Source of the DNA: Ruminococcus flavefaciens
GTDB taxonomy: Bacteria > Bacillota > Clostridia > Oscillospirales > Ruminococcaceae
Reading direction: 5' to 3'
Assembly: GCA_902766595.1 (NCBI GenBank)
Contig: CACXEJ010000071.1
Span: 1 to 33,821 of the forward strand
DNA length: 33,821 nt
Shown here: positions 1 through 25,527 of the stretch, one piece after another
Layout of the letters: every line of letters begins with the position of its first letter
How positions within the stretch are numbered: position 1 is the stretch's first letter
Position numbers and translations under genes: made by a program
The notes under the pieces: model-generated
What the model was told of the DNA's origin: nothing
Databases searched by the model: none
Seen by the model: only the letters and a program-made list of their open reading frames with translations

Positions 1-1033
1 TAGCTGTACAGGTAGGATTTTTCTCTCTTGTCCAGTTGCCGGGGTTGTGACCGAGAGCCTTTGTGTTTCTTGTCTGAGATGCGCTGCATCCGGAATTAGC
101 ACAAACCCAGATCTCTACGCCGCCTGTTGTGCAGGTAGCTGCTCTTGCAGTCATCTTGAACTTGTATCTGTGAGAAGTACACTTTGCTGCATATACAACA
201 GTATCTGCATTGTCTTCCTTTGAAGCCTCAAAGCTTGTTGACTTGTCAGCAACATAAGTTTCTCTTATATCTGATGCAGACTTTTCAGGAGACTGCTGCA
301 TAGTTATAGCTGCAAATGCTGCAACGTTCTGAGCTGCACCGGAAGTACCGTCGCTCCATTCAACGAATGTATCAACGTAATCGCCGAAGTTGGAATAATC
401 CTGCACATTTCCGTTCTCATCGAGAGCGCCGACAGAGATTACAGTCGGATATGCAGCCGGGTAACAAGCCTTTTCGCTTGAATAGTTGCCGGCGGAGGCA
501 ACTACGAGCACCTCGTGCTCCTCGGCATAAGTAAGAGCGTTCTCGAGCAGAGCGGACTTCTTATCACCTACAAAGCTCATTACGATGATATCAGCGCTGT
601 TGTCAACTGCCCAGCGGATACCCTTCTCTACATTCGCATATGTTCCCTTGCCGTCGTCATCGAGGACTCTTACATCGAGAACGTCTGCGCCGGGAGCTGT
701 ATCCTTGAGAATGGACATCATATCGTTACCGTGATCGGAGTCGATAGTGTCATCGTCAATAAATGATGTCTTTCCGGCAGTTTCGTAGTTTGTAACACCT
801 GCATCGAGGAGCGCGATAGTTACGCCCTGACCTGCCGGTGCCTCTTCGCCGCAGCATCCGCCGCAGCAATCGTCGTGAACGTGATCGGCAGCTTCCGTAT
901 GCTCTTTAGTCTGAGCAGCAGGAGCGACACTCTCTGCGTTTGCAGCAAGGACTGTGTTGAGTCCAAGTGAAGTTACTGCAAGTGTCGTTGCAGAGATCGA
1001 CGAAAGAATTCGCTTTAAAATCTGTTTCTTCAT
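1..1033 (-). CDS. Secreted subtilisin-like (S8) serine protease, 3' end outside window
   Basis: The reading frame opens at an ATG at 1033 behind a GGAGGG ribosome site and runs off the window edge after 344 codons. Residues 1-30 form a signal peptide (KKQ..KR, hydrophobic core, VLAA). The S8 triad is recognisable though divergent: Asp77 in ALLDAG, His101 in SDHGND, Ser231 in DGTSGAAQ, with the oxyanion Asn in ASAGNYSS. The usual HGTHVAG and GTSMAAPH signatures are altered and the Asp-His spacing is short, so the catalytic domain is compact. No I9 propeptide is seen; between signal and catalytic domain lies a His/Cys cluster (HVHDDCCGGCC, residues 51-61). After about residue 285 a Cys-rich repeat begins (TCTTGG...C..SGC...KALGHNPG), like the cell-surface repeats of ruminococcal secreted proteins. 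Inference: exported surface or extracellular protease; substrate unknown. Confidence 0.85.
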   Translation of the reverse strand, partial: MKKQILKRILSSISATTLAVTSLGLNTVLAANAESVAPAAQTKEHTEAADHVHDDCCGGCCGEEAPAGQGVTIALLDAGVTNYETAGKTSFIDDDTIDSDHGNDMMSILKDTAPGADVLDVRVLDDDGKGTYANVEKGIRWAVDNSADIIVMSFVGDKKSALLENALTYAEEHEVLVVASAGNYSSEKACYPAAYPTVISVGALDENGNVQDYSNFGDYVDTFVEWSDGTSGAAQNVAAFAAITMQQSPEKSASDIRETYVADKSTSFEASKEDNADTVVYAAKCTSHRYKFKMTARAATCTTGGVEIWVCANSGCSASQTRNTKALGHNPGNWTREKNPTCTA

Positions 1034-1864: not shown

Positions 1865-1896
1865 AAATGTATACCAGCTTATGGAGGGATGAAAAA

Positions 1897-9922: not shown

Positions 9923-12094
9923 TCACGCATACTGCTTCGATACCGAAAGCTCGCCGGAAGCTATCTTCATCTTCATATCCTCATACGCCACAGGCTTACT
10001 GAAATAGAAGCCCTGCACCTTGTTGCAGCCTATACTGCCGAGGAACTCAAACTGCTCCTTTGTCTCGACACCCTCAGTGAGTGATACCATACCGAGCTGC
10101 TGAGTGAGGTTGACGATATTCTGGAGAATGGTCTTGGTCCTTTCGTTGTCGCCGAAGCCGTTGAGGAACTTCATATCTATCTTCAGAACGTCAAACTGAT
10201 AGTCCTTGAGGACGTTCAGCGATGAATAGCCACTGCCGAAGTCATCGAGCCATATGCTGTAACCCGAGGAGTGCAGCCGCTTCATAGCATTCTGGAGGAA
10301 GCTCTGCTGCTCTGTGAGAGCGCTTTCGGTTATCTCGACATCGAGGTAGTTCTTTGGAACGTTGTACTTCTCGGCAGTCTCGGTGAGGTAGCCCACAATA
10401 TCGCAGAGCTCGAAATCGAGACGTGAGAAGTTGAGCGATACAGGTGCGAACGGCTCGTGATGATCGCGCGCATTGCGGTAATCGCGGCAGACGAGCTCGA
10501 TTATGCACATATCCAGCTTGTGTATCTGGCGGTACTCCTCAAGGACGTCGATGAACATTCCCGGAGGGAGCAGTCCGTAATTGGGATCCTGCCACCTCGC
10601 AAGAGCCTCAAAGCCAATGATAGAACGATCCACAGTCGAGATGACCGGCTGGTAGAATACCTTGATATAGCCGTTTGCTATCGCGTTATCTATGTTGTTG
10701 ACGATGTACTGCCTGAGCGTGAAGCGCTTCTCGAGATCCTCGTCGTACAGGCAATAGCTGCGGTCGTAGTGCTTCTTTACGCTGTTGCAGGCAAAACGCG
10801 CCTTGTCGCAGGCGTGGCTTATCTCGTCGCTGCTGCCGGGCTTGTAAGCGCCGCACTTGAGTGTGAGCTGTACCTCGCCCTGAAGCTCCTTTATGCGGTC
10901 GGAGAGCCTTGCTATGATTTCATTAGAACCTTCCTGCTTGGTCAGGACAACGAAGTGGTCATCGGAATATCTCGCAACGAGCGAGCCGCTGAACGCTTCA
11001 TTGATGTGCTTTGCAAATTTGATGAGGAGCTCATTGCCCTCAGAGAAGCCGTACTTGTCGTTGTAGGACTTGAAATTCTCTATATCAAAGAAGAGGATAA
11101 TGGAGTTCTCCCTGTCCGTTGTGACGTAGTTGAGGAGCTTTTCGCCCTCGGCACGGAAGTATACCATATTGTGTATGCCGGTCAGCTCGTCCTCGATAGA
11201 TATACGGCTGAGGTAGGAGTTTATTTCCTCAAGGTGCTCGTCCTTCTGAGCCTGAGAGAGAGTCTTGTTATAGTTTGCGATGCAGAAGAGCATCGTCGAG
11301 AGCCACATCGTAAAGCCGTTTATCTTGATACCGTCTCCGAGACCGGGCTTGACCGTTGAGAAGTCGATCACGCCGTTGAACTTGCCGACGGTGCTGAGGT
11401 CTATCATACCGCTGATACGGTAGTAGAATATCAGATACGATGATGTGAGCACGAGAAATCCGTAGACCGGTCTCCACACGAGCAGACACACAACGAAGAG
11501 CTCCATCGTGAGGAACGCAAGCATCTGTTCGCCCTTGGCATAGCCGTTTGCGGAGATATAGATGCCGAAGTTGATACATACAGCCGAAAAGACGTACATA
11601 ACGCACAGGCTGTAGCGTTTTTTCGCCTCGCCGTTGCCGAGAAGTATGAACGACAGCACCATCATTGTCAGTGCACCGATAAGCAGCACCAGATAATTTA
11701 CAAGGTCAGCAAGATGTCTGTTGCTTCCGGGGTAGTCGATGAGCATTTTCACCTCAAATGCCGCGACCGCTCCGCACATCAATATAACTGCTACCGCCAG
11801 CCACCGCTGCTTCCGCATATTGAAAAGCGCGCGCACAGCAAACAGCAGCATCAGTATTCCCGAGCCGAGCAGCAGGAAATAATTCGAGAAGTATTTCTCT
11901 GTCAGCAGCCATACCTGACTCTGTAAGTTTTTCTGATATATTGTCCTTATCATACGGATTATCATCCACACTTCAAGTACGATAACGACAACAGACATAT
12001 ATATGCTCGCGCGCATATTTGTTGCGTAGAAGTAGTCTCTGACATACTTTGTCTGCTTGTCCAAGCCGAGATACCTCTGAAGTTTTTTATTCAC
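9923..12094 (-). CDS. Membrane protein with degenerate GGDEF and intact EAL domain
   Basis: 723 residues from the GTG at 12094; a GTG three codons earlier overlaps the GAGGTG ribosome site and is therefore unlikely. Residues 1 to about 275 hold seven or eight hydrophobic segments and no large external domain. The GGDEF-type domain has YSDDHF at 376-381 in place of GGDEF, so cyclase activity is not expected. The EAL domain keeps E496 (EALARW), SLNFS, EITES, DDFGSG, KIDMKF, EGVET and QGFYFSKP, so cyclic-di-GMP phosphodiesterase activity is expected. Such degenerate GGDEF domains often act as GTP or cyclic-di-GMP sensors for the EAL domain. Monocistronic with a perfect promoter. Confidence 0.92.
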   Translation of the reverse strand: MNKKLQRYLGLDKQTKYVRDYFYATNMRASIYMSVVVIVLEVWMIIRMIRTIYQKNLQSQVWLLTEKYFSNYFLLLGSGILMLLFAVRALFNMRKQRWLAVAVILMCGAVAAFEVKMLIDYPGSNRHLADLVNYLVLLIGALTMMVLSFILLGNGEAKKRYSLCVMYVFSAVCINFGIYISANGYAKGEQMLAFLTMELFVVCLLVWRPVYGFLVLTSSYLIFYYRISGMIDLSTVGKFNGVIDFSTVKPGLGDGIKINGFTMWLSTMLFCIANYNKTLSQAQKDEHLEEINSYLSRISIEDELTGIHNMVYFRAEGEKLLNYVTTDRENSIILFFDIENFKSYNDKYGFSEGNELLIKFAKHINEAFSGSLVARYSDDHFVVLTKQEGSNEIIARLSDRIKELQGEVQLTLKCGAYKPGSSDEISHACDKARFACNSVKKHYDRSYCLYDEDLEKRFTLRQYIVNNIDNAIANGYIKVFYQPVISTVDRSIIGFEALARWQDPNYGLLPPGMFIDVLEEYRQIHKLDMCIIELVCRDYRNARDHHEPFAPVSLNFSRLDFELCDIVGYLTETAEKYNVPKNYLDVEITESALTEQQSFLQNAMKRLHSSGYSIWLDDFGSGYSSLNVLKDYQFDVLKIDMKFLNGFGDNERTKTILQNIVNLTQQLGMVSLTEGVETKEQFEFLGSIGCNKVQGFYFSKPVAYEDMKMKIASGELSVSKQYA

Positions 12095-12190
12095 CCCGTT
12101 CACCTCACTGACATACTAATTTCAGCAAACCACAATTTGATTTATGATATGATCAATTCCAACCTGATAATACAAACACATTACATAATT

Positions 12191-12310: not shown

Positions 12311-13990
12311 TCAGCCCTCTGTCTTGACAAGAGCTTCGTTGATGTTTTCAACAAGTGCTCTGATAGCGTCAATGGACTTGTGTATGCCCTCAGAACTCTC
12401 GGTGGTCTTGGTAACGTTGTCATCGAGTGCACTGAATGCGGAAATAGTCATCTCGAGGATATTGATGAGCTGCTTTACGCTGTCGGCGTCCATAGTGGGA
12501 TTTTCGTTACAGAACGCAACAACGTTCTGGAGAAGATCCTTAACTACGGCAGCTCTCTCGCTCGTTGCAGATGTGGACTCTCCGATAGTCTCCATATTCG
12601 CTGTGATCTCCTTGACCTCTCCCTTGAGGTTGTTGGAAAGCTCGAGACATTCAGCGGTTATCTCAGCAAGTCTCTCGTGCTGCTTAGCGAGCTCGGAGTG
12701 TCTTGCGAGAAGCACGGACTTAGCGTGAACTACGCAGTTCTCAGGAGTATTGACACCGCGTGCAATAGCAATAGCCATATCGCGGCAGGAATTGTATCCG
12801 CAGGCACGGCAGTTATAGTTCCTGTCATCCTCAGTATGCTTGCCCATTTTCTCAAAGATAGGCTCAAGCTGCTTTGCATTCGGAACAGGCGCCGGCATAG
12901 TGCCCTTGTATGTTCTTACGAAGTCAGCCACTCTGAGCTCCTCATCGAAGCGCTTGAACAGCTTATCCTCGCCTCTGCCCATAATTCCGGCAGACTTGCG
13001 GCGTCCCTTGGCTTCGAGCTCGATAGTTCTCATCGTTGCCATAACGTCGAAAACAGTCTGTGCGCTGCCGGTAGCCGGTCCGATATTACATCCGAATTCG
13101 CAGGAGAGAACGTCGAATACCTGAGGATGCTTCGACTCAGACATTCTTGAATACATATCCAGCTCGGGGTAAACCTTATGTACGCCCTCGGAGGTAGTGA
13201 TATTCAGCTCGGGATCATGCAGCCAGAGGTTGTCTCTGAGTCCGCCCGGACGGGAATATACCGAACCGAGCTGTCCCTGAGTATCCTCAAACTTATATTC
13301 AAAATCTTCAGTAGTGTTTGTAGGTATAGTTATGCCGTTTCTCTCGAAGTAATCCATCAGCTTCTTGAAGGTAACGTTGTAGTCGATGAGACCTGTCTCC
13401 TCAAACTCAGCCTTCTTTGCGATACAGGGCGAGAGGAAGGCGATTGGATTTGTTCTTCTGAGATACTGCTTTATGTATACTGCTCCGCAGGCTACCGGAC
13501 TGTGTACCGGAGAAAGATTTGAGAGCATCTTCGGAACATAGGTCTCGATGTACTTTACGATAGCAGCACACTGCTGTGTTACGATATTGCCGAACTTGCC
13601 CTGCTCGATCATTCTGAGATGTGCCCATGTGCATATATCAGCGCCGAGCGATACGTCGTATACAGAACAGCCCTGTTTCTTGAACCAGTCGAGTATTCCC
13701 TTCCACTTGTTCGGGAAAACGGTCTTGATAGCAGGAGAAGCCATAATTATTATCTTCTCCTTGATGACTCTCGACATACATTCCTCTGTATCATCGATAA
13801 AGTCTCTTGCTCCGTGCTGGCAGACCTTTACGCATTCGCCGCAGGCGATACACTTGTTAGGATTTACCGAAGTAACAAATCTGCCGTCGTCCAGACGCTT
13901 TACGACATTTGCTTCGGAAGCAGGACAGGCACGAACGCAGGCATTACAGCCCTGACATTTTTCGGGCTTTACGATAACGAGTTCATTCAT
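12311..13990 (-). CDS. [FeFe]-hydrogenase-like redox sensor with C-terminal coiled coil
   Basis: 559 residues. Two 4Fe-4S ferredoxin motifs (C12/15/18/22 and C47/50/53/57) precede an Fe-hydrogenase large-subunit domain. All four H-cluster ligand positions appear kept (C141, C189, C297, C301). Second-shell residues differ from catalytic enzymes: the proton-relay Cys of TSCCP is Gln140 (TQQCA), the MPC motif is SPC, and the third motif is LSCEFGCNIG. A further 4Fe-4S domain (C394, C397, C402, C419) follows, then about 130 residues of helix rich in heptads and Ser/Thr (ITANMETIGESTSATSERAA), similar in style to methyl-accepting signalling helices. This fits the sensory [FeFe]-hydrogenase groups, but no PAS domain is present. 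GAGGGG precedes the ATG. It lies 71 nt after the DivIVA-like gene, probably in the same transcript. Confidence 0.88.
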   Translation of the reverse strand: MNELVIVKPEKCQGCNACVRACPASEANVVKRLDDGRFVTSVNPNKCIACGECVKVCQHGARDFIDDTEECMSRVIKEKIIIMASPAIKTVFPNKWKGILDWFKKQGCSVYDVSLGADICTWAHLRMIEQGKFGNIVTQQCAAIVKYIETYVPKMLSNLSPVHSPVACGAVYIKQYLRRTNPIAFLSPCIAKKAEFEETGLIDYNVTFKKLMDYFERNGITIPTNTTEDFEYKFEDTQGQLGSVYSRPGGLRDNLWLHDPELNITTSEGVHKVYPELDMYSRMSESKHPQVFDVLSCEFGCNIGPATGSAQTVFDVMATMRTIELEAKGRRKSAGIMGRGEDKLFKRFDEELRVADFVRTYKGTMPAPVPNAKQLEPIFEKMGKHTEDDRNYNCRACGYNSCRDMAIAIARGVNTPENCVVHAKSVLLARHSELAKQHERLAEITAECLELSNNLKGEVKEITANMETIGESTSATSERAAVVKDLLQNVVAFCNENPTMDADSVKQLINILEMTISAFSALDDNVTKTTESSEGIHKSIDAIRALVENINEALVKTEG

Positions 13991-14061: not shown

Positions 14062-15159
14062 TTACTTGTCACCGAGTGCGCTTGCCTGAGCTGCGAGCGC
14101 TGCAAGGTCGATCTTTCCGCCCTTCTTGCCGGCTGGCTTTTCCTCCTCAGGGGCAGCTGCACTCTCTTCGGGAGCAGCCTCTTCCTTTGCATCGGCAGGT
14201 TTATCGCCTGTCTTTTCGAGCTTCTCAAGAGCCTCAGCCATCTGCTTCAGCTTATCGAGGCCCTCCTTCTGCTTCTGCTTTTCCTCTTCACGGGCGGCAT
14301 TCTCTTCCTCTCTTGCCCTGAGAGCTTCTCTCTTGGGAGGCTCCGGGAGATCAAGGTCGAGGCGTTCAGGCTCTCTGAACACGGGAACTCCGCCCTCTCT
14401 GAGGGTATTGCTCACGTTGAAGAGTCTCTCCTCGGCATCGCTTATATCAGCGAGACCGTTATCTACGAATTTCTCAAGCACCGTTCTGAGCTGCGACATC
14501 TGTGCACCGATCCTTGTCACGTCGTCGAGCATTACAGCCTTGAGGTTGTTGTTTGAAGTTTTAAGCTCCTCAGCGGTATTCTTAACGTCTGCGAGCTTTA
14601 CTGCCGCTTCTCTTTCTGCGTCATATATTATCTGCTTAGCCTCGTCGTTGGCATCGGCAACAGTGGACTCTGCGAGTCTCTTGGCTTCAGCCTCTATGTT
14701 GGCAGCTTCGTTCTTGGCATTTGAAATGAGCATATCTGCCGACTTCTGCGCTTCTATGAATACCTGACTGAGTGAAGCAGCATCAGTTCCTGCCTTCATG
14801 GCAGCAATAGATTCCTTTGCCTTTTTGAGCTGATCCTCGAGACCTGTGACCGTACCCGTGAGCTCTGTGATCTTGTCGTTGCACACGCGGTTTTCCTCTT
14901 CGACAGCCTTCAGCTTTGTGGAGAGCGTCTCATTCTGTACCTGGACCTGTGTGAGCTTGGCTCTTTCGCCTGCCATAACGGTCTCGTGAGCCTTTTCAGC
15001 CTCAGTACCCTTCTTATAGGCTTCCATAAGGAGCTTGGTCTCTCTCAGTTCATTTTTCAGGTCAAACACCTGATTATTGAGGTATTCAAGGCGTCTGATG
15101 ACCTCTGCCTTATCATAGCCGCCGAACGTAACGGTCTTTATGAATCTTGCCTCTGCCAT
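14062..15159 (-). CDS. DivIVA-like coiled-coil protein
   Basis: 365 residues. The N-terminus (IKTVTFGGYDKAEVIRRLEYLNNQVFDL, split here as FGGYDKAEV and RRLEYLNNQ) resembles the DivIVA/GpsB membrane-curvature-binding module 'GYD..EV..FL'. About 220 residues of coiled coil follow, then a Pro/Glu/Lys-rich linker and an acidic Ala-rich tail ending in a short conserved-looking helix (IDLAALAAQASAL). DivIVA proteins mark poles and septa and recruit partners. Its partner here may be the hydrogenase-like sensor encoded next. Own promoter and a hairpin leader. Family assignment is by pattern only. Confidence 0.7.
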   Translation of the reverse strand: MAEARFIKTVTFGGYDKAEVIRRLEYLNNQVFDLKNELRETKLLMEAYKKGTEAEKAHETVMAGERAKLTQVQVQNETLSTKLKAVEEENRVCNDKITELTGTVTGLEDQLKKAKESIAAMKAGTDAASLSQVFIEAQKSADMLISNAKNEAANIEAEAKRLAESTVADANDEAKQIIYDAEREAAVKLADVKNTAEELKTSNNNLKAVMLDDVTRIGAQMSQLRTVLEKFVDNGLADISDAEERLFNVSNTLREGGVPVFREPERLDLDLPEPPKREALRAREEENAAREEEKQKQKEGLDKLKQMAEALEKLEKTGDKPADAKEEAAPEESAAAPEEEKPAGKKGGKIDLAALAAQASALGDK

Positions 15160-16097: not shown

Positions 16098-17336
16098 TCA
16101 GATGTCAACAACAGTATTTATCATATTACCACCGTTGAGCTTAGCATTTCTGAGTGCTGTATCGAGTTTAACGAGCAGCGAGTTTACGTTGAGGCAGTCG
16201 CCCGGCAGGTAGTGGTAAACGCTTCCTGATGTCGGGAGCTGTACTGTGAGGTTAAGCACATCGTAAGGGCTGCACATTACAGCGTGGATATTCTGAACGA
16301 TACCCATTGCCTGGCTCTCGGAGATCTCCTTGTTGAATACGAAGCAGAACTCGTTACCGGTGATGTTGTAGATCTCGGCAGATCCGCTGAACTCGTTCTT
16401 GAGTCTGTCAGCAACTGCGATGAGGTACTCGTCGCCGAAGTCATAGCCGTATGTATCGTTGATGCTGCGGAAGTTATCCATATCGAATACCGCGATGTTG
16501 AAGCGGTCGGACTCGAGTCTGCCGCTGATATCCTCATCGAGGGCATAGCGGTTCTTCATACCGGTAAGGATATTTGTAAGAGCAAGGTCGCTTGCCTTCT
16601 GACGTGTGGACTTGAGCTTTGCATCGACCTCACGGAGGCTCTTCTCACGCTCTTCAAGGTCAATTCTTGCCTTCTTAGCCATCTTAGCGATGAACATAAT
16701 AGCGATCTCACCGAGGATAAGGAATATGAGCATGAGGGCTTCAACAAGGATAAATACCTTGACAATTCTTGCGCCCTGTGCAGCAGCATCCTTATTAGCG
16801 ATATCAATAGTAGCCTTAAGCATTTCTGAAGCTGTTACCTGAAGAGGATAAAGATCCTGAACGTAAAGGTTTCGGTAGTCGCCGCCGAAGGCTTCGAGAC
16901 CGGTACCGGCAGCCTTAGCTTCCTGATCTTTGAACTTCTGAAGTGCACTATTGAGCTTATCCTCATAGAGCTTGATAAAAGCCTTAGCGCTGTTGTAACG
17001 GCGTTCAACATCATCAGATTTACCGTCTATCTCTTCAAAGTCAGCCATAGCGTTGTAAATGTTTGTGAATGCGAGCTGTGTATCGACAACAATAGCGTCT
17101 GTATCACTGCTCATCTGTGAAACGATACGAAGAATGTTACCGTTGACGATAAGCAGCTCAGTATTCATTCGGTTTACCGCGCTCATAGTGCTTGAAGTTT
17201 TTGTTGAGATATTTCTGTTCGTTCTTGAAAGGAAAGCAACGAGTGCCATATTTGCAAGAACAACGACAGCCAGAAGAATAGCACCAAAGGTATAAGCTCC
17301 GGATTGATAACTTGCATTATTCTTATCTTTTGCCAT
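16098..17336 (-). CDS. Transmembrane GGDEF-domain protein with external helical sensor
   Basis: 412 residues: a membrane segment at about 17-38, an extracytoplasmic helical region (about 40-190, like the four-helix sensors of chemoreceptors), a second membrane segment (about 192-216), a coiled coil, and a GGDEF domain (about 250-410). The signature reads TGNEF at 326-330, so the first Gly and the Asp are replaced. Metal and substrate binding may be weakened, but the Glu is kept and some activity cannot be excluded. GGAGG precedes the ATG. It begins 15 nt after the stop of the lipoprotein gene, so the two form a tight bicistron. Inference: the lipoprotein reports its ligand to this protein. 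Confidence 0.9.
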   Translation of the reverse strand: MAKDKNNASYQSGAYTFGAILLAVVVLANMALVAFLSRTNRNISTKTSSTMSAVNRMNTELLIVNGNILRIVSQMSSDTDAIVVDTQLAFTNIYNAMADFEEIDGKSDDVERRYNSAKAFIKLYEDKLNSALQKFKDQEAKAAGTGLEAFGGDYRNLYVQDLYPLQVTASEMLKATIDIANKDAAAQGARIVKVFILVEALMLIFLILGEIAIMFIAKMAKKARIDLEEREKSLREVDAKLKSTRQKASDLALTNILTGMKNRYALDEDISGRLESDRFNIAVFDMDNFRSINDTYGYDFGDEYLIAVADRLKNEFSGSAEIYNITGNEFCFVFNKEISESQAMGIVQNIHAVMCSPYDVLNLTVQLPTSGSVYHYLPGDCLNVNSLLVKLDTALRNAKLNGGNMINTVVDI

Positions 17337-17351
17337 AGTCTCTTACCTCCA

Positions 17352-18530
17352 TTAATAATTCTCAGGATGGAGAAGAAGCTGGATATATTCTTCATTCATA
17401 TTCTTAGCGTCAACCCATGTTACACCTGTATCAAGCTGCTTAGGAACGTTTTCACCTTCCAGCGCCTTCTTAGCATATCTTACTGCAACATATCCCATAT
17501 TATATGGGTTCTGAACAACTGTGCCCTTGAGAACGCCTGTTCTGATGAAGGCGAGCTCCTGTTCATCAGAGTTGAAGCCTATAACATACACAGTATCAGA
17601 CTTGCCGAGTGCTTCAACAGCCTTGCAAGCTCCGATAGTTGTATTTGTATTTGTTGCAAAGATACACTTAATGTTGCAGTCAGCAGCTTCAAGGAGCTTT
17701 GTTGTTGCTTTTTCAGCATCTTCGACAGATGAAACGCCATCGGCAACCACAAAGTATTTATCAACAGCATCGCTATTTACCATCGTTTTAAGTGCTGATT
17801 CATCTACATTTTTACCGAAGTCCTTTTTGATCTCATCAATAACCAGGTCTTTGGTCGCCTCTTTAAAGCCATTAACACGATCAGCAGCAGTAGCAGCTGT
17901 ATGAGGTATAATACCAACCATACCGCGGCCGAGATTCTCAATACTTGTATAAACATTAACACCGCCCTCCTTACTCTGAAGGGCATTAAGAATATTCTTT
18001 ACTTCATCTGCTACATAATCAGAATTAAGAACTCCCGAAGAAGCATATCTTGCTGCAACGTATCCGCCGTCTCTGTCAGAGGAGCTGACGAGTGAGAGCA
18101 CATCTACTGAGGGGATTTTTTCGTCAACCGGTTTTTCGTCGATCTTTGAGTTGATGTTTATGATCTTGATGTCCTTTGCCTGTGCCTTTGCCAGAGCCTC
18201 ATTGAGCTCTGTCTGACTGTTAGGTGCTATGATGATCGCCTCAACACCCTCGTCTACAGCCTTGTTTATGGCATCTACCTGTGTAGCAAAGTCATTATCA
18301 CCTGTAGCTATTGTATAGACGATCTCATATCCGAGCTCATCACCGGCATCTTCAGCGCCGTTCTTAACTTCATCCCAGAAGGATACTACATTAGAGTTCT
18401 TTGTGATAACAGCTATCTTGCTCTTCTTTTTTCCACCAGGCTTACCACAGCCTGTTGCGGCAAGAAGTGTAGCGCTTACGGTACAGAGTGCGATAGCGCT
18501 GAGAATTCTTTTTCTTTTCTCTTTGTTCAT
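17352..18530 (-). CDS. Sugar-binding-type (RbsB-like) substrate-binding lipoprotein
   Basis: 392 residues. The signal peptide ends in a lipobox (LLAATGC, Cys28). The mature part is a type 1 periplasmic-binding fold: KIAVITKNSNVVSFWDEVKNG, read as the first strand and helix, then VDAINKAVDEGVEAIIIAP and, near the end, VIGFNSDEQE..FIRTGVLKGTVVQNPYNMGYVAV. These are the usual ligand-pocket segments of ribose/galactose binding proteins. No ABC permease or ATPase gene is nearby; the partner is a transmembrane GGDEF protein. The role is therefore probably sensing rather than import. AGGAGG lies 9 nt before the ATG; the leader is structured. Confidence 0.92.
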   Translation of the reverse strand: MNKEKRKRILSAIALCTVSATLLAATGCGKPGGKKKSKIAVITKNSNVVSFWDEVKNGAEDAGDELGYEIVYTIATGDNDFATQVDAINKAVDEGVEAIIIAPNSQTELNEALAKAQAKDIKIININSKIDEKPVDEKIPSVDVLSLVSSSDRDGGYVAARYASSGVLNSDYVADEVKNILNALQSKEGGVNVYTSIENLGRGMVGIIPHTAATAADRVNGFKEATKDLVIDEIKKDFGKNVDESALKTMVNSDAVDKYFVVADGVSSVEDAEKATTKLLEAADCNIKCIFATNTNTTIGACKAVEALGKSDTVYVIGFNSDEQELAFIRTGVLKGTVVQNPYNMGYVAVRYAKKALEGENVPKQLDTGVTWVDAKNMNEEYIQLLLHPENY

Positions 18531-18932: not shown

Positions 18933-18961
18933 TTGACAAGTATTACAAAAAGTGTTATACT
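18933..18961 (+). promoter_or_regulatory. Promoter of the TerY-P-like operon
   Basis: TTGACA (18933-18938), 17 nt, TATACT (18956-18961); a leader of about 100 nt follows. No further strong promoter was seen before 24870, so it probably serves five genes. Confidence 0.85.
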
Positions 18962-19068
18962 ATTTGTGATAGCAATGTGTAAATATTCGTGTAATATCAC
19001 TGCTACTGTTAATTGTAGTTATTCCGACTATTAATTTCAATATAACTTTTAACGTCAGGAGGGTAATT

Positions 19069-20103
19069 ATGCAGTGCGAGAAATGTGAAGCCGAAGTCAG
19101 CGCGAAACTCGTGTCCTGTCCGAACTGCGGCGCGCCTGTCCCACAGAATATCGAAGGTTTTGAGAATACCATGGAGTTCCAGAAAGAGCTGCGTTCGATC
19201 GTCGTCAATCACGGTCCGTACGGCGTATTGAGGAAAAATAGATTTATCGGTCTTCTCAACGACTATATCCCGGATTATAACAGAGAACGCCGTCTCCTTA
19301 TTAATATGTATAATATGGGCGTCCTCACCCTTATGCTTAAAGAACCTAACAGAGAAATTTCCATTATGAGAGCCAAGAGCTTTATGCTCAGCGACGTTTT
19401 CCTCTCAGAAAACGCTACCGAGTTCGTTCTTGCCTGCTATACATATATGCTCGGCTGGCCTTATGAGTCCCCCCTCAAGGTGCTCCCGCCGGAAGAAGGC
19501 GAAGTTGAGGAAGAGGTCGAAGAAGCTCCCAAGAAAGCGGTCAGCGTCAACGATATGGTATTCACACCAAGAAACGCTTTCAGATACCGCCTGAGCAGCA
19601 ATATCGTTATCCCCGAAGGCTTTACAAAGCTCGATGCCTTCTGCTTCGATAAGTTCGGCTCGCTCAGAACTATCCAGCTTCCCTCTACGCTCCTCGCTAT
19701 CGGCGAGTATGCCTTCTCAGGCTGCAAGCGCCTCAGAGGTCTCGAGCTCCCCGAATCACTCAGGATAATCAAACAGGGCGCGTTCAGCCAGTGTGCTAAG
19801 CTCGTCGTTGTTAAAATACCAAAGGGCGTTATGGAGATCGAGGACAGCACGTTCTCTTTCTGCACCAGTCTTGAGGTAATTGAGATCCCCGATACTGTCA
19901 GCAGCATCGGTGCAGAAGCTTTCTCCGGCTGCGATAAGCTCAGAAAGCTCTTCCTCCCGGACAGCGTTAAGTTCATCGACATCAACGCCTTCTCATATTG
20001 TCCTAATCTCACTATCCATTGCCTCGAAAATTCTTACGTTCACAAATACTGCCTCGTAAACGGCCTCAGCTGCAAGCTCGTCGCCTCATCGGCAGAAGTC
20101 TGA
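19069..20103 (+). CDS. Zinc-ribbon protein with BspA-type leucine-rich repeats
   Basis: 344 residues. The N-terminus is a zinc ribbon (CEKC at 3-6 and CPNC at 17-20). A helical domain (about 30-130) contains LRKNRFIGLLNDYIPDY and RERRLLINMYNMGVL. An acidic linker (EEGEVEEEVEEAPKK) leads to five or six LRR_5/BspA-type repeats (LRTIQLPSTLLAIGEYAFSGC pattern, about 175-325). No signal peptide or membrane segment is seen, so it is probably cytoplasmic, unlike surface BspA proteins. GGAGGG is upstream of the ATG. It is the first gene of the kinase/vWA/phosphatase operon, 31 nt before the kinase gene. Inference: scaffold or substrate-recognition partner. Confidence 0.88.
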   Translation: MQCEKCEAEVSAKLVSCPNCGAPVPQNIEGFENTMEFQKELRSIVVNHGPYGVLRKNRFIGLLNDYIPDYNRERRLLINMYNMGVLTLMLKEPNREISIMRAKSFMLSDVFLSENATEFVLACYTYMLGWPYESPLKVLPPEEGEVEEEVEEAPKKAVSVNDMVFTPRNAFRYRLSSNIVIPEGFTKLDAFCFDKFGSLRTIQLPSTLLAIGEYAFSGCKRLRGLELPESLRIIKQGAFSQCAKLVVVKIPKGVMEIEDSTFSFCTSLEVIEIPDTVSSIGAEAFSGCDKLRKLFLPDSVKFIDINAFSYCPNLTIHCLENSYVHKYCLVNGLSCKLVASSAEV

Positions 20104-20134
20104 ACACCACTAACTAACGAAAGGATGATCTCAG

Positions 20135-21478
20135 ATGGTTGAGCTTGAAATTGGTCAGGAAGTCGAAATGGAATACGGCGGCAGCGCCAAGGTTTTGAGC
20201 GTTATCGGCAGCGGCGGTCAGGGTACCGTTTATCTCGTAAGATTTAACGGTATGAAATGGGCGCTCAAGTGGTACGACATCGACAAGATGAAAAAGCCCA
20301 AGGAATTCCGTAAGAACCTGCAGAATAACATAAATGACGGTCCGCCCAGCAACAAGTTCCTCTGGCCTAAGTACCTCACTAAGGAAACAGAGGACGGCAC
20401 GTTCGGATACATAATGGACCTCAAGCCGGAAGGCTTCGATTCATTCGTTGATATACTCAACACCTACAAGCTGGAAATTGATCCGCTCACCGGACACGCA
20501 GTCAAGAGACCGGTAAAATTCAACAGCCTCAATGCTATGGTGACAGCAGTTATAAACATCGTAAATGCTTTCCGTCAGCTCCACCGTGCCGGTAAGAGCT
20601 ATCAGGATCTTAACGACGGAGGCTTCTTTATCAATGTGAACACCGGCGCCGTTCTCGTCTGCGACTGCGATAATATCGCTCCTGACGGCAGCAACTTCGG
20701 TATCGGCGGTAAGCCCGGATATATGGCTCCCGAGGTCGTAAGAGGCATCGCCCAGCCGAATGTGCAGACCGATAAATACTCCCTCGCAGTAGTCCTTTTC
20801 AAGCTCCTCTTCAGAGGCGATCCTATGGAGGGCGAAAAGGTAGTAAAGGACGTCTGCCTCACAGAATCCTCAGAACTCAAGCACTACGGTCAGAACGCCG
20901 TTTTCGTATATGACCCGAACGACGCTTCCAACCGTCCCGTAAGAGGTATCCACGACAACGTTATCAAGTTCTGGAGGATATACCCCGACTACATCAAGGA
21001 CGCTTTCATACGCTCATTTACCACAGGTATCAGCGAGCCTACAAAGCGTATCATAGAAAATGAATGGCAAAAGCTCTTTATCCGTCTCAGATCTGAGATC
21101 ATAATGTGCGGCTGCGGCAGAACGAATTTCTCATCAATGTTCGTTCAGCCCAATCCCAAGACATTCAAGTGCCCGAAGTGCGGTATGGAATTCGCTTCGC
21201 TCGGTTTCAGCGACAGAGATTACCGTATGCCGCTCTACCTCGGCTGCCGCTTCTATGAATGCGAGATCAGCCCGGATTCAGATGACTTTACTAAGGTCGC
21301 CGGAGAGCTCGTCGAAAACAAGCTCAAGCCCGGAGTCCTCGGCATAAAGAACTGCTCCGAAAGACAGTGGAAGGCAAAAATGCCGGACGGCGCGTTCTAT
21401 GACATAGCACCGGGAAAAGGTTTCCCTATCTGGCAAGGTCTTGAGATAGACTTTGGCGTGATCAAAGCACAGATATAA
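20135..21478 (+). CDS. Divergent Ser/Thr protein kinase with C-terminal zinc ribbon (TerY-P triad type)
   Basis: 447 residues. Kinase landmarks: glycine loop GSGGQGTVY (25-33), ALK with Lys45, catalytic loop YQDLNDGGFF with Asp158, metal-binding CDCDN (Asp177), activation-segment GYMAPE and DKYSLAVVLFKLL. The loop position five after the catalytic Asp, normally Asn, is Gly163, so activity may be altered. After the kinase domain (about 290) come a zinc ribbon (CGCGR and CPKCG) and a beta-rich end domain (LGIKNCSERQWKAKMPDG, PGKGFPIWQGLEIDFG). Kinases of this type travel with a TerY vWA protein and a PP2C phosphatase, as here. AAAGGA lies 9 nt before the ATG. No membrane segment, so cytoplasmic. 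Confidence 0.9.
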   Translation: MVELEIGQEVEMEYGGSAKVLSVIGSGGQGTVYLVRFNGMKWALKWYDIDKMKKPKEFRKNLQNNINDGPPSNKFLWPKYLTKETEDGTFGYIMDLKPEGFDSFVDILNTYKLEIDPLTGHAVKRPVKFNSLNAMVTAVINIVNAFRQLHRAGKSYQDLNDGGFFINVNTGAVLVCDCDNIAPDGSNFGIGGKPGYMAPEVVRGIAQPNVQTDKYSLAVVLFKLLFRGDPMEGEKVVKDVCLTESSELKHYGQNAVFVYDPNDASNRPVRGIHDNVIKFWRIYPDYIKDAFIRSFTTGISEPTKRIIENEWQKLFIRLRSEIIMCGCGRTNFSSMFVQPNPKTFKCPKCGMEFASLGFSDRDYRMPLYLGCRFYECEISPDSDDFTKVAGELVENKLKPGVLGIKNCSERQWKAKMPDGAFYDIAPGKGFPIWQGLEIDFGVIKAQI

Positions 21479-21529
21479 ACCGCTGTTCCTATTTAGCCAA
21501 CAGCAGGATCGAAAGGATGTATGTTAATT

Positions 21530-22396
21530 ATGAGCAATGAGAATATGACAGAGCCCGTAGTAAATGAGAATACTTCAGGTCTCGACGATTTCGAGCCCGC
21601 AGCTGCTGAGAATACAGCTCCTGCCGCTGCAAGCGCTCTCGATTTCGACGACGATCCCCTTAGTGCTACCGGCGTTTCAAGAAAGAGCCTTGTTATTTTC
21701 TTCCTGATAGATACTTCAGGAAGTATGAAGGGCAAGAAAATGGGCGAGCTCAATACCGTTATGGAAGAGCTTATCCCCGAAATACGCAGAGTCGGCGAAG
21801 CTGATACAGAAGTTAAGGTCGCTGTTCTTACCTTCTCAACAGAGGTTAGATGGATGTACTCTACTCCTATCGCTATCGAGGACTTCGAGTGGGCAAGACT
21901 CCGTGCAAGCGGCGTTACAAGTATGGGCGCTGCATTCAAGGAGCTCTCTCTCAGAATGTCCAGAAACAGCTACCTCAATTCGCCCTCTCTTTCATTCGCA
22001 CCCGTTATCTTCCTTATGACTGACGGCTATCCGTCAGACGATTACAGAGAAGGTCTTAAGGAGCTCCAGTCCAACAGCTGGTATAAGTTTGGTCTTAAAG
22101 CTGCTCTCGGTATCGGTGATGAGGCTAACGATGACGTTCTCGCTGAATTCACAGGCAGCAAGGATACTGTCGTTCACGCTTATTCCGGTACTCAGCTCGC
22201 TCAGATGATCAAGATCATCGCTGTTACTTCCGCTCAGATCGGCAGTAAGTCTATGACTCTCTCCGATGACAGCGGTCACGAGCTCGGTGAAGAAGACGTA
22301 TTCTCCGCTAAGCAGAAACTCCTCGGTCAGCAGATCCAGGAGCTCGTAAGCAACAAGGTCGAGGATAACGACGTTCCTTTCGATACCGGTTGGTAA
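21530..22396 (+). CDS. TerY-like von Willebrand factor A domain protein
   Basis: 288 residues from the ATG at 21530; an in-frame ATG at 21521 lies only 3 nt after the AAAGGA site and is less likely. An acidic, Ala-rich N-terminal stretch (1-50) precedes the vWA domain. The MIDAS metal site is complete: DTSGSM (D61, S63, S65), T130 in GVTSMG and D165 in MTDGYPS. A 60-residue charged tail follows. TerY-type vWA proteins are the adaptor member of the kinase/phosphatase triad and are thought to bring targets together through the metal site. It lies 51 nt after the kinase gene and 46 nt before the phosphatase gene. Confidence 0.9.
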   Translation: MSNENMTEPVVNENTSGLDDFEPAAAENTAPAAASALDFDDDPLSATGVSRKSLVIFFLIDTSGSMKGKKMGELNTVMEELIPEIRRVGEADTEVKVAVLTFSTEVRWMYSTPIAIEDFEWARLRASGVTSMGAAFKELSLRMSRNSYLNSPSLSFAPVIFLMTDGYPSDDYREGLKELQSNSWYKFGLKAALGIGDEANDDVLAEFTGSKDTVVHAYSGTQLAQMIKIIAVTSAQIGSKSMTLSDDSGHELGEEDVFSAKQKLLGQQIQELVSNKVEDNDVPFDTGW

Positions 22397-22442
22397 TGCC
22401 GGAGCTACTTTTCAGATCTAATCGGAAGGAGGACTGAGTTCT

Positions 22443-23360
22443 ATGTTCAACGGCTTCAGCCACTCGGTCAAAGGCGCAAGCCATGAGAAAACCGGTCTCG
22501 TCTGCCAGGACAGTTCAGCATATAAGGTCACTGACAACTATGCTGTCGCAGTAGTCGCAGACGGTCATGGCAGCAAAAAGCATTTCAGGAGCAATATGGG
22601 CTCTAAATTCGCTGTCGAGGCAACTATCGAAGCTATCGACACTTTCTTCGGGGACTACGACCAGTTTGTAAGTAATTTCCCTAAGAACCACAGAATGATA
22701 ATCAGGAATATTCAGAAACAAGCTATATACAACTGGAACCTCAAAGTAAATGCCCACGTTGAAGCCAATCCTGTTACTGAAGAGGAAAAGAGCAAGTTCA
22801 CAGAAGAGGAATTTGCTGATATTCCGCAGGCTTCCTACTATGGTACGACACTCATCGCAGGCGTTGCTGCCAATGACTTTACCTTCGGTCTCCAGATAGG
22901 CGACGGTACTCTCGTTGCTCTCTTCGATGACGGCGAGGCTGTTATGCCTATGGAGTACAACGAGGCTGCTCCCGCTAACGTGACCGCTTCGATGTGCAAC
23001 TCCAACGCTGCTTCTATGTTCAGCGGCTTCTACGTTGAAAACAAAAAGCTCATAGCTATGTATGCCTCCACCGACGGTCTCTACACCTCCTTCGGAAGCG
23101 AAAATGATTTTCTCGATTACCATACTATAATCACCAGCCAGCTCTCAAATCTTGAGAACTTCAAAGCAGTTATCATCAATAACCTCACCAAGCGCTCACA
23201 CTACGGCACAGAGGACGATATTTCCCTCTCCTGCGTGTACGATACGGATATGATCGCTGATAATATGGATCTTATCCTCTCCAAGGTCGAGGAGAACAAG
23301 AAGCGCGCTGCCGAGCGAAAGGCTGCACTTCTTACCAAAAAGATTGATAACTTTGAATGA
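22443..23360 (+). CDS. PP2C-family Ser/Thr phosphatase
   Basis: 305 residues. The metal-binding motifs of the PPM/PP2C family are present: ADGHGS (Asp40), YASTDGLY (Asp211) and TEDDISLS (Asp258/Asp259). The N-terminus HSVKGASHEKTGLVCQDSS is the usual 'G..H...G..CQD' opening of stand-alone bacterial PP2C proteins. It has no membrane segment and ends with a basic helix. AGGAGG precedes the ATG. It is expected to reverse phosphorylation by the kinase two genes upstream. Confidence 0.93.
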   Translation: MFNGFSHSVKGASHEKTGLVCQDSSAYKVTDNYAVAVVADGHGSKKHFRSNMGSKFAVEATIEAIDTFFGDYDQFVSNFPKNHRMIIRNIQKQAIYNWNLKVNAHVEANPVTEEEKSKFTEEEFADIPQASYYGTTLIAGVAANDFTFGLQIGDGTLVALFDDGEAVMPMEYNEAAPANVTASMCNSNAASMFSGFYVENKKLIAMYASTDGLYTSFGSENDFLDYHTIITSQLSNLENFKAVIINNLTKRSHYGTEDDISLSCVYDTDMIADNMDLILSKVEENKKRAAERKAALLTKKIDNFE

Positions 23361-23463
23361 TCTGTGTCCAGAACGGCTCAATGCCGTTATAATACCTGCC
23401 GATGCGCTGTATTTAGGCATTTTAAGCGCAGATGGTCAGATAATATCATAACGAAAGGTAAAA

Positions 23464-24720
23464 GTGGTGTTTGCTATGGAAATTAGTGCTTTCTACAATA
23501 CTGCAAAAAACTTCGCAGACAAGATCAAAAACCAGAAACCGGAATATGTTTCCGATCCCGATGCCTGTCTCTGTCTTATCATTGCCGATACTGACGAGAT
23601 CTTCTCAGGCGTTACTACAATAGGCGTAAACGACGAGGGCAATGTCGTTACTATACCGGCTGATACTATCGCCGTTATGTCTCTCCTTGCCAACGGAAAG
23701 GCAAAGGCTCGTCAGATGATAAATATCACCTTCGACGACTACGGTTTCTTCGAGCCCAGCCAGACAAGTATTGATCTGCTTGTAAAATCCGGTGCTGAAA
23801 ACAGCAGCTGTCAGGTAGTTATCTCCCCCGAGGAGTCGGCTACCGCAGCAAGTATGTCAAACAGCACTCCTGACTTTATCAGCGGCTTCGATGATGCTGT
23901 TGCACCTCCGCTCGGCGCTCCCGCAGACTTCTCCGCAGGCTTCGATGTTGATGAGTCCAATCCCTTTGCAGCTCCCGGCGGCGATCAGCCTGCTGCTCAG
24001 AACAATCAGAACGGCAATGATCCTAAGTTCCTGTATGAGTCAGCTGCTGAAGCTCAGCAGCAGGGTGCAAGCGGATTTATGAGCCAGCAGAGCGGTTACC
24101 CTCAGCAGGCAGGCTATCCTCAGCAGAGTGGTTACCCGCAGCAGAGCGGCTATCCTCAGCAGAGCGGCTACCCGCAGCAGGGCGGCTATCCCCAGCAGGG
24201 CGGCTATCCCCAGCAGGGCGGCTATCCCCAGCAGGGCGGCTATCCTCAGCAGGGCGGTTACCCTCAGCAGGGTGGTTACCCTCAGCAGGGCGGTTATCCC
24301 CAGCAGGGCGGTTATCCCCAGCAGGGCGGCTATCCTCAGCCTAACCCCTATATGGGCGCAGGCGGTCACACTTCCGTTTACCAGAACAATATGAACGCTG
24401 CTCCTTACAGACAGGGCGCTTATGCAAGCCATTCCGTTCATTCTGTTCATGTAGGCGGTGCAGCTCCTATGCGCAGCAACTATCAGCAGAGCAGTGTTAT
24501 GCTCTCCAAGTCAAGCGGCGGAGCTTTCAAGAAACGTCTCAACAGCTTCCTTGACGATGAAGACGGCAATGTAGACGCTGAAACAGCAGAGATTGCTGCA
24601 AATGCTGCTACTGCCGGTGAGACAAGCCTCGAAGACGGTCCTATGTCCAAGAATGATATGCTCAAACAGGCTAAGGACAGAAAGAAGATCGCTAAGGCTA
24701 ACCTCAAGAACAAACTCTGA
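23464..24720 (+). CDS. Operon protein with possible dead deaminase-like head, GGYPQQ repeat region and basic tail
   Basis: 418 residues from GTG 23464; GTG 23467 or ATG 23476 are alternatives (AAAGG at 23454-23458). The N-terminal 115 residues resemble the order of a cytidine-deaminase fold: [17 protein letters not shown], then [14 protein letters not shown] where deaminases have C/H-A-E, then [10 protein letters not shown] where they have PCxxC. The zinc ligands would be missing, so any such domain is inactive; this is a tentative reading. A Ser/Asp/Ala linker follows. Then come fourteen 6-residue units (Ser/Ala/Gly-Gly-Tyr-Pro-Gln-Gln, residues about 210-293), a Tyr/Asn/Gln-rich part, an acidic patch ([12 protein letters not shown]) and a basic helical end. 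The middle is prion-like, suggesting condensate or scaffold behaviour, and offers many Tyr/Ser sites to the operon's kinase. Last gene of the operon. Confidence 0.85.
24091..24342 (+). repeat. Fourteen in-frame 18-bp tandem repeats
   Basis: Units of 18 bp (for example GGCGGCTATCCCCAGCAG) repeat without interruption. The first five encode Ser or Ala in place of the first Gly, and the last ends in Pro. Neighbouring units differ mostly at third codon positions, while three adjacent units from 24181 to 24234 are identical, a sign of recent copy-number change. Confidence 0.95.
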
Positions 24721-24730
24721 TCAAATATGA

Positions 24731-24766
24731 ATATGTGTTTCTCACTCAAGAATGAGAAACACATAT
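24731..24766 (+). terminator. Hairpin ending the TerY-P-like operon
   Basis: A perfect 14-bp stem (ATATGTGTTTCTCA, loop of 8) 10 nt after the stop codon, with only a short T-run behind it. A second perfect 10-bp stem, TGCCTGTATT...AATACAGGCA, follows at 24779-24811. Termination is likely but not from a textbook U-tract. Confidence 0.65.
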
Positions 24767-24869
24767 TTATCCCGATACTGCCTGTATTATCACTTTATCC
24801 AAATACAGGCACTTAAGTCCCTTAATTATTCACGAAAATTGCAAAAATGTCTTTTTCAGCACTTCCCTA

Positions 24870-24996: not shown

Positions 24997-25527
24997 ATGA
25001 CTTATTTGCTTAGTATTGATGAAGCTATCGACAGGAAATTTCTTGTGACAAAATCTATAAAAGGACAGGCAGAGGCTGGAACTATTATCCACGTTATGGA
25101 CGCCGAAAAAGTCAAGACAGACCTTCTCGTGACTTACCGTGTTGCTCGTTTTAACGGCAAATTCCACGACTATCAGGACTATAACGTTAAGTTCGATGAC
25201 ATCAACCAGTTCTGTAAATGGGCTCAGCCTGATAACTTTATCGCAAGAAATTACGAGAGCTTCAGCATCAGAGACATCCAGCATTACATCAAGATAAAGA
25301 ACAGAACAGTCGCTTCTTTCTGTCTGCCGCTCATCATCGTTCTGGCAGCTATCATCTGGGCAGTTGCATTTCTTGCCCTCAGCGGCATTCTCAGATTTAT
25401 CGTCGGTGGTGCTCTCACAGTCGTTGCTATCGTCTTTGTATTCGCTCAGTTCAGATCTCAGAAGAAGAAGGAAAAGATGCGAATGTACAAAAAGATCAGT
25501 TCCGGCTGGGGCGTCGTTATCAATTAG
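24997..25527 (+). CDS. Hypothetical membrane protein with cytoplasmic N-terminal domain
   Basis: 176 residues. The first 100 form a soluble domain of mixed strands and helices (FLVTKSIKGQAEAGTIIHVMD, YRVARFNGKFHDYQDYNVKF). Two hydrophobic segments follow (about 106-128 and 130-150) and a strongly basic tail (RSQKKKEKMRMYKK). GGAAGGG precedes the ATG. No family is recognised. It has its own promoter and terminator; being next to the phosphorylation operon may be chance. Confidence 0.8.
   Translation: MTYLLSIDEAIDRKFLVTKSIKGQAEAGTIIHVMDAEKVKTDLLVTYRVARFNGKFHDYQDYNVKFDDINQFCKWAQPDNFIARNYESFSIRDIQHYIKIKNRTVASFCLPLIIVLAAIIWAVAFLALSGILRFIVGGALTVVAIVFVFAQFRSQKKKEKMRMYKKISSGWGVVIN

Follow-up and report, generated by a model that had tools for sequence, protein, structure and literature searches.

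A five-gene Ruminococcus operon pairing a TerY-P-type triad with a leucine-rich repeat protein and a deaminase-fold protein

The five-gene operon and its conservation

We analysed a stretch of Ruminococcus flavefaciens DNA of 33,821 nucleotides (nt; assembly GCA_902766595.1, contig CACXEJ010000071.1, positions 1 to 33,821 of the forward strand), referred to here as the window, and in it a run of five co-directional genes. The central three encode a Ser/Thr kinase, a TerY-like von Willebrand factor A (vWA) protein and a PP2C phosphatase. The first encodes a leucine-rich repeat (LRR) protein and the last a protein with a repetitive tail. The features of the operon are as follows; scores are Pfam E-values unless stated, and pLDDT and pTM are the predicted local distance difference test and predicted template modelling scores of AlphaFold2 (AF2).

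18933-18961, plus strand: sigma-70-type promoter, TTGACA-17-TATACT, 11 of 12 positions matching
19069-20103, plus strand: LRR gene, 344 amino acids (aa), zinc ribbon, helical domain and LRR (LRR_5, 1.1e-36)
19147-19488, plus strand: helical domain of the LRR protein, a putative adaptor, about 110 residues following a Cys4 zinc ribbon (AF2 pLDDT 96.4)
20135-21478, plus strand: kinase gene, 447 aa, Ser/Thr kinase with a C-terminal zinc ribbon (Pkinase, 2.5e-11)
21521-22396, plus strand: vWA gene, 291 aa, TerY-like (VWA, 6.4e-11)
22443-23360, plus strand: PP2C phosphatase gene, 305 aa (PP2C_2, 5.1e-33)
23464 (GTG) or 23476 (ATG) to 24720, plus strand: repeat-protein gene, encoding a pseudo-cytidine-deaminase with a low-complexity GYPQQ-repeat tail and a basic C-terminus
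23476-23853, plus strand: cytidine-deaminase-fold domain of the last protein, zinc ligands lost (AF2 pLDDT 93.8, pTM 0.87)

The open reading frames (ORFs) are separated by 31, 42, 46 and 103 nt. A promoter pattern of the form TTGACN-16..18-TANNNT was found within 350 nt 5' of the LRR gene in every one of the 76 relatives with at least 200 nt of sequence there, against a Markov-shuffle expectation of 2.85, and the same pattern preceded the kinase gene in 0/79, the vWA gene in 0/77, the PP2C gene in 0/74 and the repeat gene in 1/65. Because the pattern sits before the LRR gene and hardly before the other four, the five genes behave as one operon, and the single promoter and gaps of 31-103 nt reported in a first-pass annotation of this DNA agree with both the ORFs and the comparative data. 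That annotation also described similar ribosome sites and hairpins after the last gene, and each statement stands in part. The sites near 20118 and 23450 are alike (AACGAAAGG) but the one near 21508 differs (ATCGAAAGG). Of the hairpins present 3' of the last gene, the strong one (24730-24767) resembles a terminator when read on the minus strand but not on the plus strand, and is therefore no classic plus-strand terminator.

A species-genome collection was searched with the kinase, giving 242 confirmed relatives, and the best 80 loci were taken for a census of gene order. They come from Ruminococcus, Oscillospiraceae and Clostridia/Clostridiales bacteria, two of them (L039 and L040) from a single assembly. 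The order LRR-kinase-vWA-PP2C-repeat protein was kept at nearly every testable locus: the LRR gene in 79/79, the vWA gene in 79/79, the PP2C gene in 74/75, with L110 the sole exception, and the last gene in 75/75. The outer two genes had been proposed to belong with the triad, a proposal that their separation from it in related genomes would have contradicted; they stay with it, and the census rules out the idea that they are chance neighbours. Mean identity to the window was highest for the kinase (87%) and vWA protein (79%), followed by PP2C (68%), the LRR protein (66%), a small membrane protein encoded downstream (58%) and the last protein (49%).

The operon is also widespread within the genus. 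Among 125 genus genomes a kinase profile matched 97 at E<=1e-40, including genomes with a distant paralogue only, and a kinase of the orthologue class (at least 820 bits) was present in 90. The deaminase-domain profile matched 88 genomes, three of them having just a paralogue or a weak match. For pairs we counted the 92 strongest deaminase matches, leaving out the fragment G366:C9, against 114 kinase matches of at least 582 bits: 83 of the 92, in 82 genomes, lie downstream of a same-strand kinase. The other 31 kinases include some of a paralogous class and some near contig ends. The nine exceptions include L144, L145 and L138, where an operon-type deaminase-fold gene does not follow triad genes; that of L138 precedes a kinase-vWA pair.

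In an evenly drawn sample of the order, the kinase family occurred in 8/295 genomes, and kinase partners outside the orthologous operon vary, among them Sel1-repeat, LRR, helicase and transglutaminase-like proteins. Since triads read elsewhere have other partners, we take the five-gene set to be a Ruminococcus arrangement of a wider triad.

Triad, helical domain and deaminase fold

Comparisons of gene neighbourhoods and tests of phage defence are the sources of what is known about TerY-P triads. In the window the vWA, PP2C and zinc-ribbon kinase genes are adjacent and their key residues are kept, in line with the first-pass call of a TerY-P-like triad. Kinase residues Lys45, Asp158 and Asp177 and four zinc-ribbon cysteines are kept in 81/81 orthologues (the ribbon being judged by these residues), and Gly25 of the G-loop is invariant. 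The vWA protein is called TerY-like from its VWA domain and metal ion-dependent adhesion site (MIDAS) residues, all five of which are present in 78/78, and six checked PP2C aspartates are kept in 75/75. As TerY-P is described in PMC11090510 (see also PMC4978471), it comprises a TerY-like vWA protein, a PP2C phosphatase and a kinase with a C-terminal zinc ribbon; the window triad fits this description because all three are present.

The kinase departs from the usual pattern at one position. Kinases usually carry a metal-binding Asn five residues past the catalytic Asp; here Gly163 replaces it in 81/81 orthologues, so strong kinase activity cannot be taken for granted. The Asn is retained in 7/9 more distant kinases read, and in seven paralogous kinases that are intermediate in similarity the catalytic Asp itself is gone. 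The Gly and the Asp-less paralogues would fit a pseudokinase, with the triad acting as a binding switch and PP2C as its sole active enzyme. We consider this unlikely, as Lys45, Asp158, Asp177 and Gly25 are invariant and none of the other five proteins compared is as well conserved as the kinase.

A second triad-type kinase is encoded in the window's own genome (L123, contig C77, 5762-7078), with no vWA or PP2C match in the fetched stretch, which stops at the contig end. The ORF after it we take to be RNA polymerase beta subunit-like.

The zinc cysteines of the LRR protein are present in 78-79 of 80 rows, the remaining rows being gaps. The helical domain that follows them matched no PDB structure at E<=0.001 and no Pfam family, and a profile built from the orthologues matched proteins whose genes adjoin other triads: L129 (two matches near 1e-9), L125 (1.3e-9, a Sel1-repeat protein), L135 (7.8e-9), L128 (6.5e-6), L153 (9.8e-10), L154 (5.9e-17), L164 (3.8e-8) and L165 (7.6e-11 and 1.3e-9). 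A second profile, into which some of these proteins were incorporated, found new matches in L126 (7.9e-11), a third protein of L129 (2.2e-9) and L127 (1.1e-5). Leaving the orthologous operon aside, a hand tally of 14 complete triads gave 10 with such an adaptor protein in the fetched stretch. Separately from these, L126 has an adaptor protein near a kinase, with no vWA or PP2C match there. Because its helical domain recurs in proteins encoded beside other triads, the LRR protein is a candidate adaptor, a role that had been suggested for it from the window's letters and that gains support from this shared domain. The domain would serve to dock partners to the triad, and the genes of such partners could also lie elsewhere. 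In a sample of 291 genomes of the class, the kinase was found in three, one of them the window's own, and the adaptor in four, including all three kinase genomes; the fourth (G609, E 1.6e-4) had no kinase match.

The last protein had been described as a low-complexity repeat protein. The repeat tail is there, but a folded deaminase-like N-terminal domain had been missed, and its predicted structure, together with the PDB matches, rules out a purely low-complexity protein. The domain comprises residues 1-126 counted from the ATG at 23476. All 50 Foldseek matches listed for the predicted structure against the PDB are cytidine or blasticidin deaminases, the best at E 7.7e-6. By sequence, Pfam gave no match for the full window protein, and the domain profile had no meaningful match among PDB sequences (best E 0.081, a ribosomal protein). 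PF00383, the cytidine/blasticidin S deaminase family, was matched by 6/38 relatives, the window copy not among them (best 8.1e-8; four above the curated cut-off). The deaminase identity thus rests on the structure comparison, on Pfam matches of relatives and on profile matches in other genomes. In the order sample the profile matched 15/295 genomes, two with the operon type and 13 with open frames of 125-181 aa, and of eight such stand-alone loci read, seven have a C-x-E...PCxxC motif and one has a close variant of it.

The catalytic zinc motif of deaminases consists of C/H-x-E and PCxxC. At these positions the window copy reads PAD and PSQTS, with no zinc ligand. Compared with PF00383 deaminases, some relatives of the domain keep the full zinc motif while the window copy shares the N-terminal fold, has no zinc ligands, bears a long Q/Y/G/P-rich tail and belongs to a phosphorylation operon. 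Among 88 distinct domains, paralogues included, the zinc site is full in 18, partial in six and absent in 64; eight of the full sites are paralogues, and 10 belong to the 80 operon-type domains. A tree of kinase and PP2C was built for 51 of the 81 kinase rows: the window's, and every one that had PP2C together with a typed, non-duplicate deaminase domain. On it the 10 full-zinc cases need at least four changes, two of which are forced by strongly supported branches, so the state of the zinc site changed more than once. Repeated loss explains this most naturally, since a lost zinc site is unlikely to be regained. The tail is rich in Q, Y, G and P, with at least five YP[QPY] motifs in 58/67, NPF in 66/67 and a basic end in 62/67.

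Genes of the GGDEF type recur beside deaminase-fold genes in two settings. The gap between the PP2C gene and the last gene exceeds 600 nt in 13 loci, and in 12, which belong to sister lineages, it is filled by a GGDEF-type ORF with a hydrophobic N-terminus; no such ORF was found in the gap of the thirteenth, L086. The exact GGDEF letters occur in 10 of the 12, and the ORF of L107 is GGDEF by Pfam (6.5e-33). The second setting is a zinc-intact paralogue of the same plan (deaminase, low-complexity part, basic end), one copy of which lies in the window's own genome (L143, contig C139, 481-1188). We read 20 of the 37 weak deaminase matches of the genus scan (loci including L143, L146, L147 and L167-L182): all 20 genes have the zinc motif, and 19 lie within 300 nt of a co-directional GGDEF-type gene. 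In the exception, L174, a co-directional gene within 3 kb encodes a PP2C relative. The neighbours in L143, L146 and L147 match GGDEF and dCache by Pfam, dCache being above cut-off only in L147. To our knowledge no system like this pair of a zinc-intact deaminase and a GGDEF-type gene has been described.

Interpretation and rival readings

The anatomy of the operon, that is its promoter, gene order, kept residues, helical domain and deaminase fold, is seen in the sequences or in structure models. Our favoured reading of it, to which we would give a probability of roughly 40%, is that of a signalling operon, stable across the genus, with a TerY-P-type triad at its core, which acts on or through a nucleotide-binding pseudo-deaminase scaffold. 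The helical domain would dock the LRR protein to the triad, with the LRR selecting a partner or signal. The kinase and PP2C would control phosphorylation within the complex, most likely on the last protein's tail, and the deaminase-fold domain would serve as a nucleotide- or nucleoside-binding receptor and scaffold. Because relatives of this domain adjoin GGDEF-type genes, its input or output may lie within a cyclic-di-GMP-type network.

Several points weigh against this reading. The 80 census loci are near relatives by choice, and triads beyond the genus have other partners. Four of the 14 other complete triads (L124, L130, L137 and L141) have no adaptor protein in the fetched stretch, and three helical-domain proteins (L162 of the window's own genome, L163 and L166) have no triad in the stretches read. 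Strong activity is doubtful for a kinase that lacks the usual metal-binding Asn in its sequence. The full zinc motif is kept in 10/51 rows of the tree, so some operon members may still be enzymes. GGDEF genes are common generally, and the one flanking the operon is degenerate; the cyclases beside the zinc-intact paralogue never read GGDEF (19/19), with GSDEF in 15/19 and GDDEF or GADEF in the rest, and their activity is uncertain for that reason. Finally, phosphorylation, binding and a cyclic-di-GMP output are all steps that we infer.

The L162 protein is a second helical-domain protein of the window's genome (contig C58, 6894-8456, 520 aa, E 1.5e-8); the 14 kb read there contain no triad gene.

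It should also be considered that TerY-P can be a defence module. TerY-P protects Pseudomonas aeruginosa against phage (PMC10889362), and TerY-P-like modules in which an OB-fold replaces the zinc ribbon of the kinase have stand-alone anti-phage activity (PMC11090510). The operon could by analogy be a chromosomal anti-phage system with the LRR protein as lineage-specific sensor and the deaminase-derived protein as effector, and the variable triad partners outside the lineage, helicase and transglutaminase-like proteins among them, would suit such a role. The kinase did match defence kinases in PADLOC (best 1.2e-11), mostly over about 50-100 residues of generic kinase domain; PADLOC returned nothing for the LRR, vWA, PP2C and last proteins, though whether its library holds TerY-P models was not checked. 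Defence systems would be expected to be recognised by such models and to lie in variable or mobile islands, whereas the kinase-deaminase pair recurs in 82/125 genus genomes with order and promoter fixed and neighbours recurrent, and no mobile-element protein appeared among the window proteins scanned with Pfam. As the locus recurs genus-wide and PADLOC is silent on four of the five proteins, we regard defence as quite unlikely.

A role in metal or chemical stress of the Ter type, with TerD and TerC partners encoded elsewhere or lost, is another rival reading. The first-pass annotation had noted the absence of both genes, which holds for the window's own genome (TerD 0, TerC 0, in an assembly 82% complete) but is incomplete for the genus, where TerD adjoins paralogous kinases and triads. 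TerD occurs in 22/60 genus genomes and, among 42 sampled genomes that carry the kinase-deaminase pair, in 17. Paralogous kinases without the catalytic Asp lie in operons with TerD in L136 (TerD 2.5e-56) and L142, and L153 and L154 are other genus triads, each placed after two TerD genes. With none in the window's genome and no TerD detected in the remaining 25 of the 42 pair genomes, a Ter-type function for this operon seems rather doubtful. The loci L136, L140 and L142 look alike, and appear to represent a pseudokinase Ter operon in which the Asp-less kinase is followed by PP2C, a presumably sugar-isomerase-like gene, TerD (by profile match in L136 and L142) and, in L136, an AIM24-like gene.

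Set beside the TerY-P triad, the window operon shares all three components, adjacent in one operon, and the C-terminal Cys4 zinc ribbon of the kinase; it differs in having no Ter or DNA-processing genes, in its LRR/adaptor and pseudo-deaminase partners, in the Gly that replaces Asn in the kinase, and in its spread through much of one genus, where its neighbourhood recurs. Anantharaman et al. 2012 reportedly described the triad, and some of the partners, perhaps with the helical domain among them, may already be found there. What is new here is the deaminase-fold start of the last protein, the recurring helical domain and the adjacency of deaminase and GGDEF genes, and a search of the open-licence literature found no paper that appears to describe the operon or the deaminase-GGDEF pairing.

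The operon offers a stable example of a TerY-P triad. Most of the genomes sampled from its genus have it, and R. flavefaciens and R. albus, which degrade fibre in the rumen, belong to that genus. Its helical domain may explain how triads choose partners, and its candidate substrate or receptor is a retired nucleotide enzyme fold, so that triad substrate and recruitment become testable. A broader proposal, tentative and on balance unlikely, is that the deaminase-fold proteins form a new nucleotide-signal class: zinc-intact members would work with GGDEF-type cyclases, and the pseudo-enzymes would receive that cyclic-nucleotide signal, or a related one, or act as scaffolds for it, with the new adaptor domain bringing them under a TerY-P switch. 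If true, this would bridge Ser/Thr phosphorylation and cyclic-dinucleotide signalling.

Flanking genes

Five genes around the operon were followed in the same 80 loci.

24997-25527, plus strand: small membrane protein, a frequent operon neighbour
12311-13990, minus strand: [FeFe]-hydrogenase-like protein, syntenic neighbour in 25/80 fetched flanks
14062-15159, minus strand: DivIVA-like protein, below curated cut-offs, syntenic neighbour in 55/80 fetched flanks
16098-17336, minus strand: divergent protein with a hydrophobic N-terminus and a degenerate GGDEF domain (TGNEF)
17352-18530, minus strand: periplasmic-binding-type lipoprotein (Peripla_BP_4, 6.5e-43)

The membrane-protein gene is on the same strand as the operon in 38 loci, on the opposite strand in 24, absent in five and untestable in 13. 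PHROGs gave no match for this protein, PP2C or the last protein.

The hydrogenase-like and DivIVA-like genes recur nearby and also lie upstream of the paralogous triads L137, L139 and L141, which makes H2 or redox input a serious rival, in which the neighbouring hydrogenase-like protein would sense H2 and signal to the triad. The four H-cluster cysteines are present in 22/22 rows, and in 13/80 loci the gene precedes the LRR gene in the same orientation. HydDB (PMC5037454) lists putative sensory [FeFe]-hydrogenases as phosphatase-linked group C3 and chemotactic group C2; the neighbour shares with these its complete H-cluster cysteines and its place near kinase and phosphatase genes. A sensory hydrogenase of R. 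albus has been proposed to signal to an adjacent Ser/Thr kinase, as reported in PMC5707799. In the window, however, the gene is a neighbour only, more than 5 kb away and divergent, its product has no PAS domain by Pfam, and it falls in just 25/80 fetched flanks, where the 6 kb limit can cut the gene off. The R. albus sensor differs too: it has a PAS domain, and its gene shares a transcript with those for a ferredoxin-only hydrogenase and an alcohol dehydrogenase (PMC6776011). Altogether we judge hydrogen signalling improbable.

Closest upstream lie the lipoprotein and TGNEF genes. A relative of the TGNEF gene occurs in 63/80 loci, of which five (L089, L105 and L107-L109) are the operon GGDEF gene instead, and the TGNEF signature is kept in 55/60 relatives. 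The lipoprotein gene is upstream on the minus strand in 52/80 loci, elsewhere in two, not found in 20 and untestable in six. Together the two genes (16098-18530, minus strand) resemble a ligand-to-nucleotide sensor pair. Two GGDEF-EAL proteins are also encoded in the window, at 1867-4938 on the plus strand and 9923-12103 on the minus strand.

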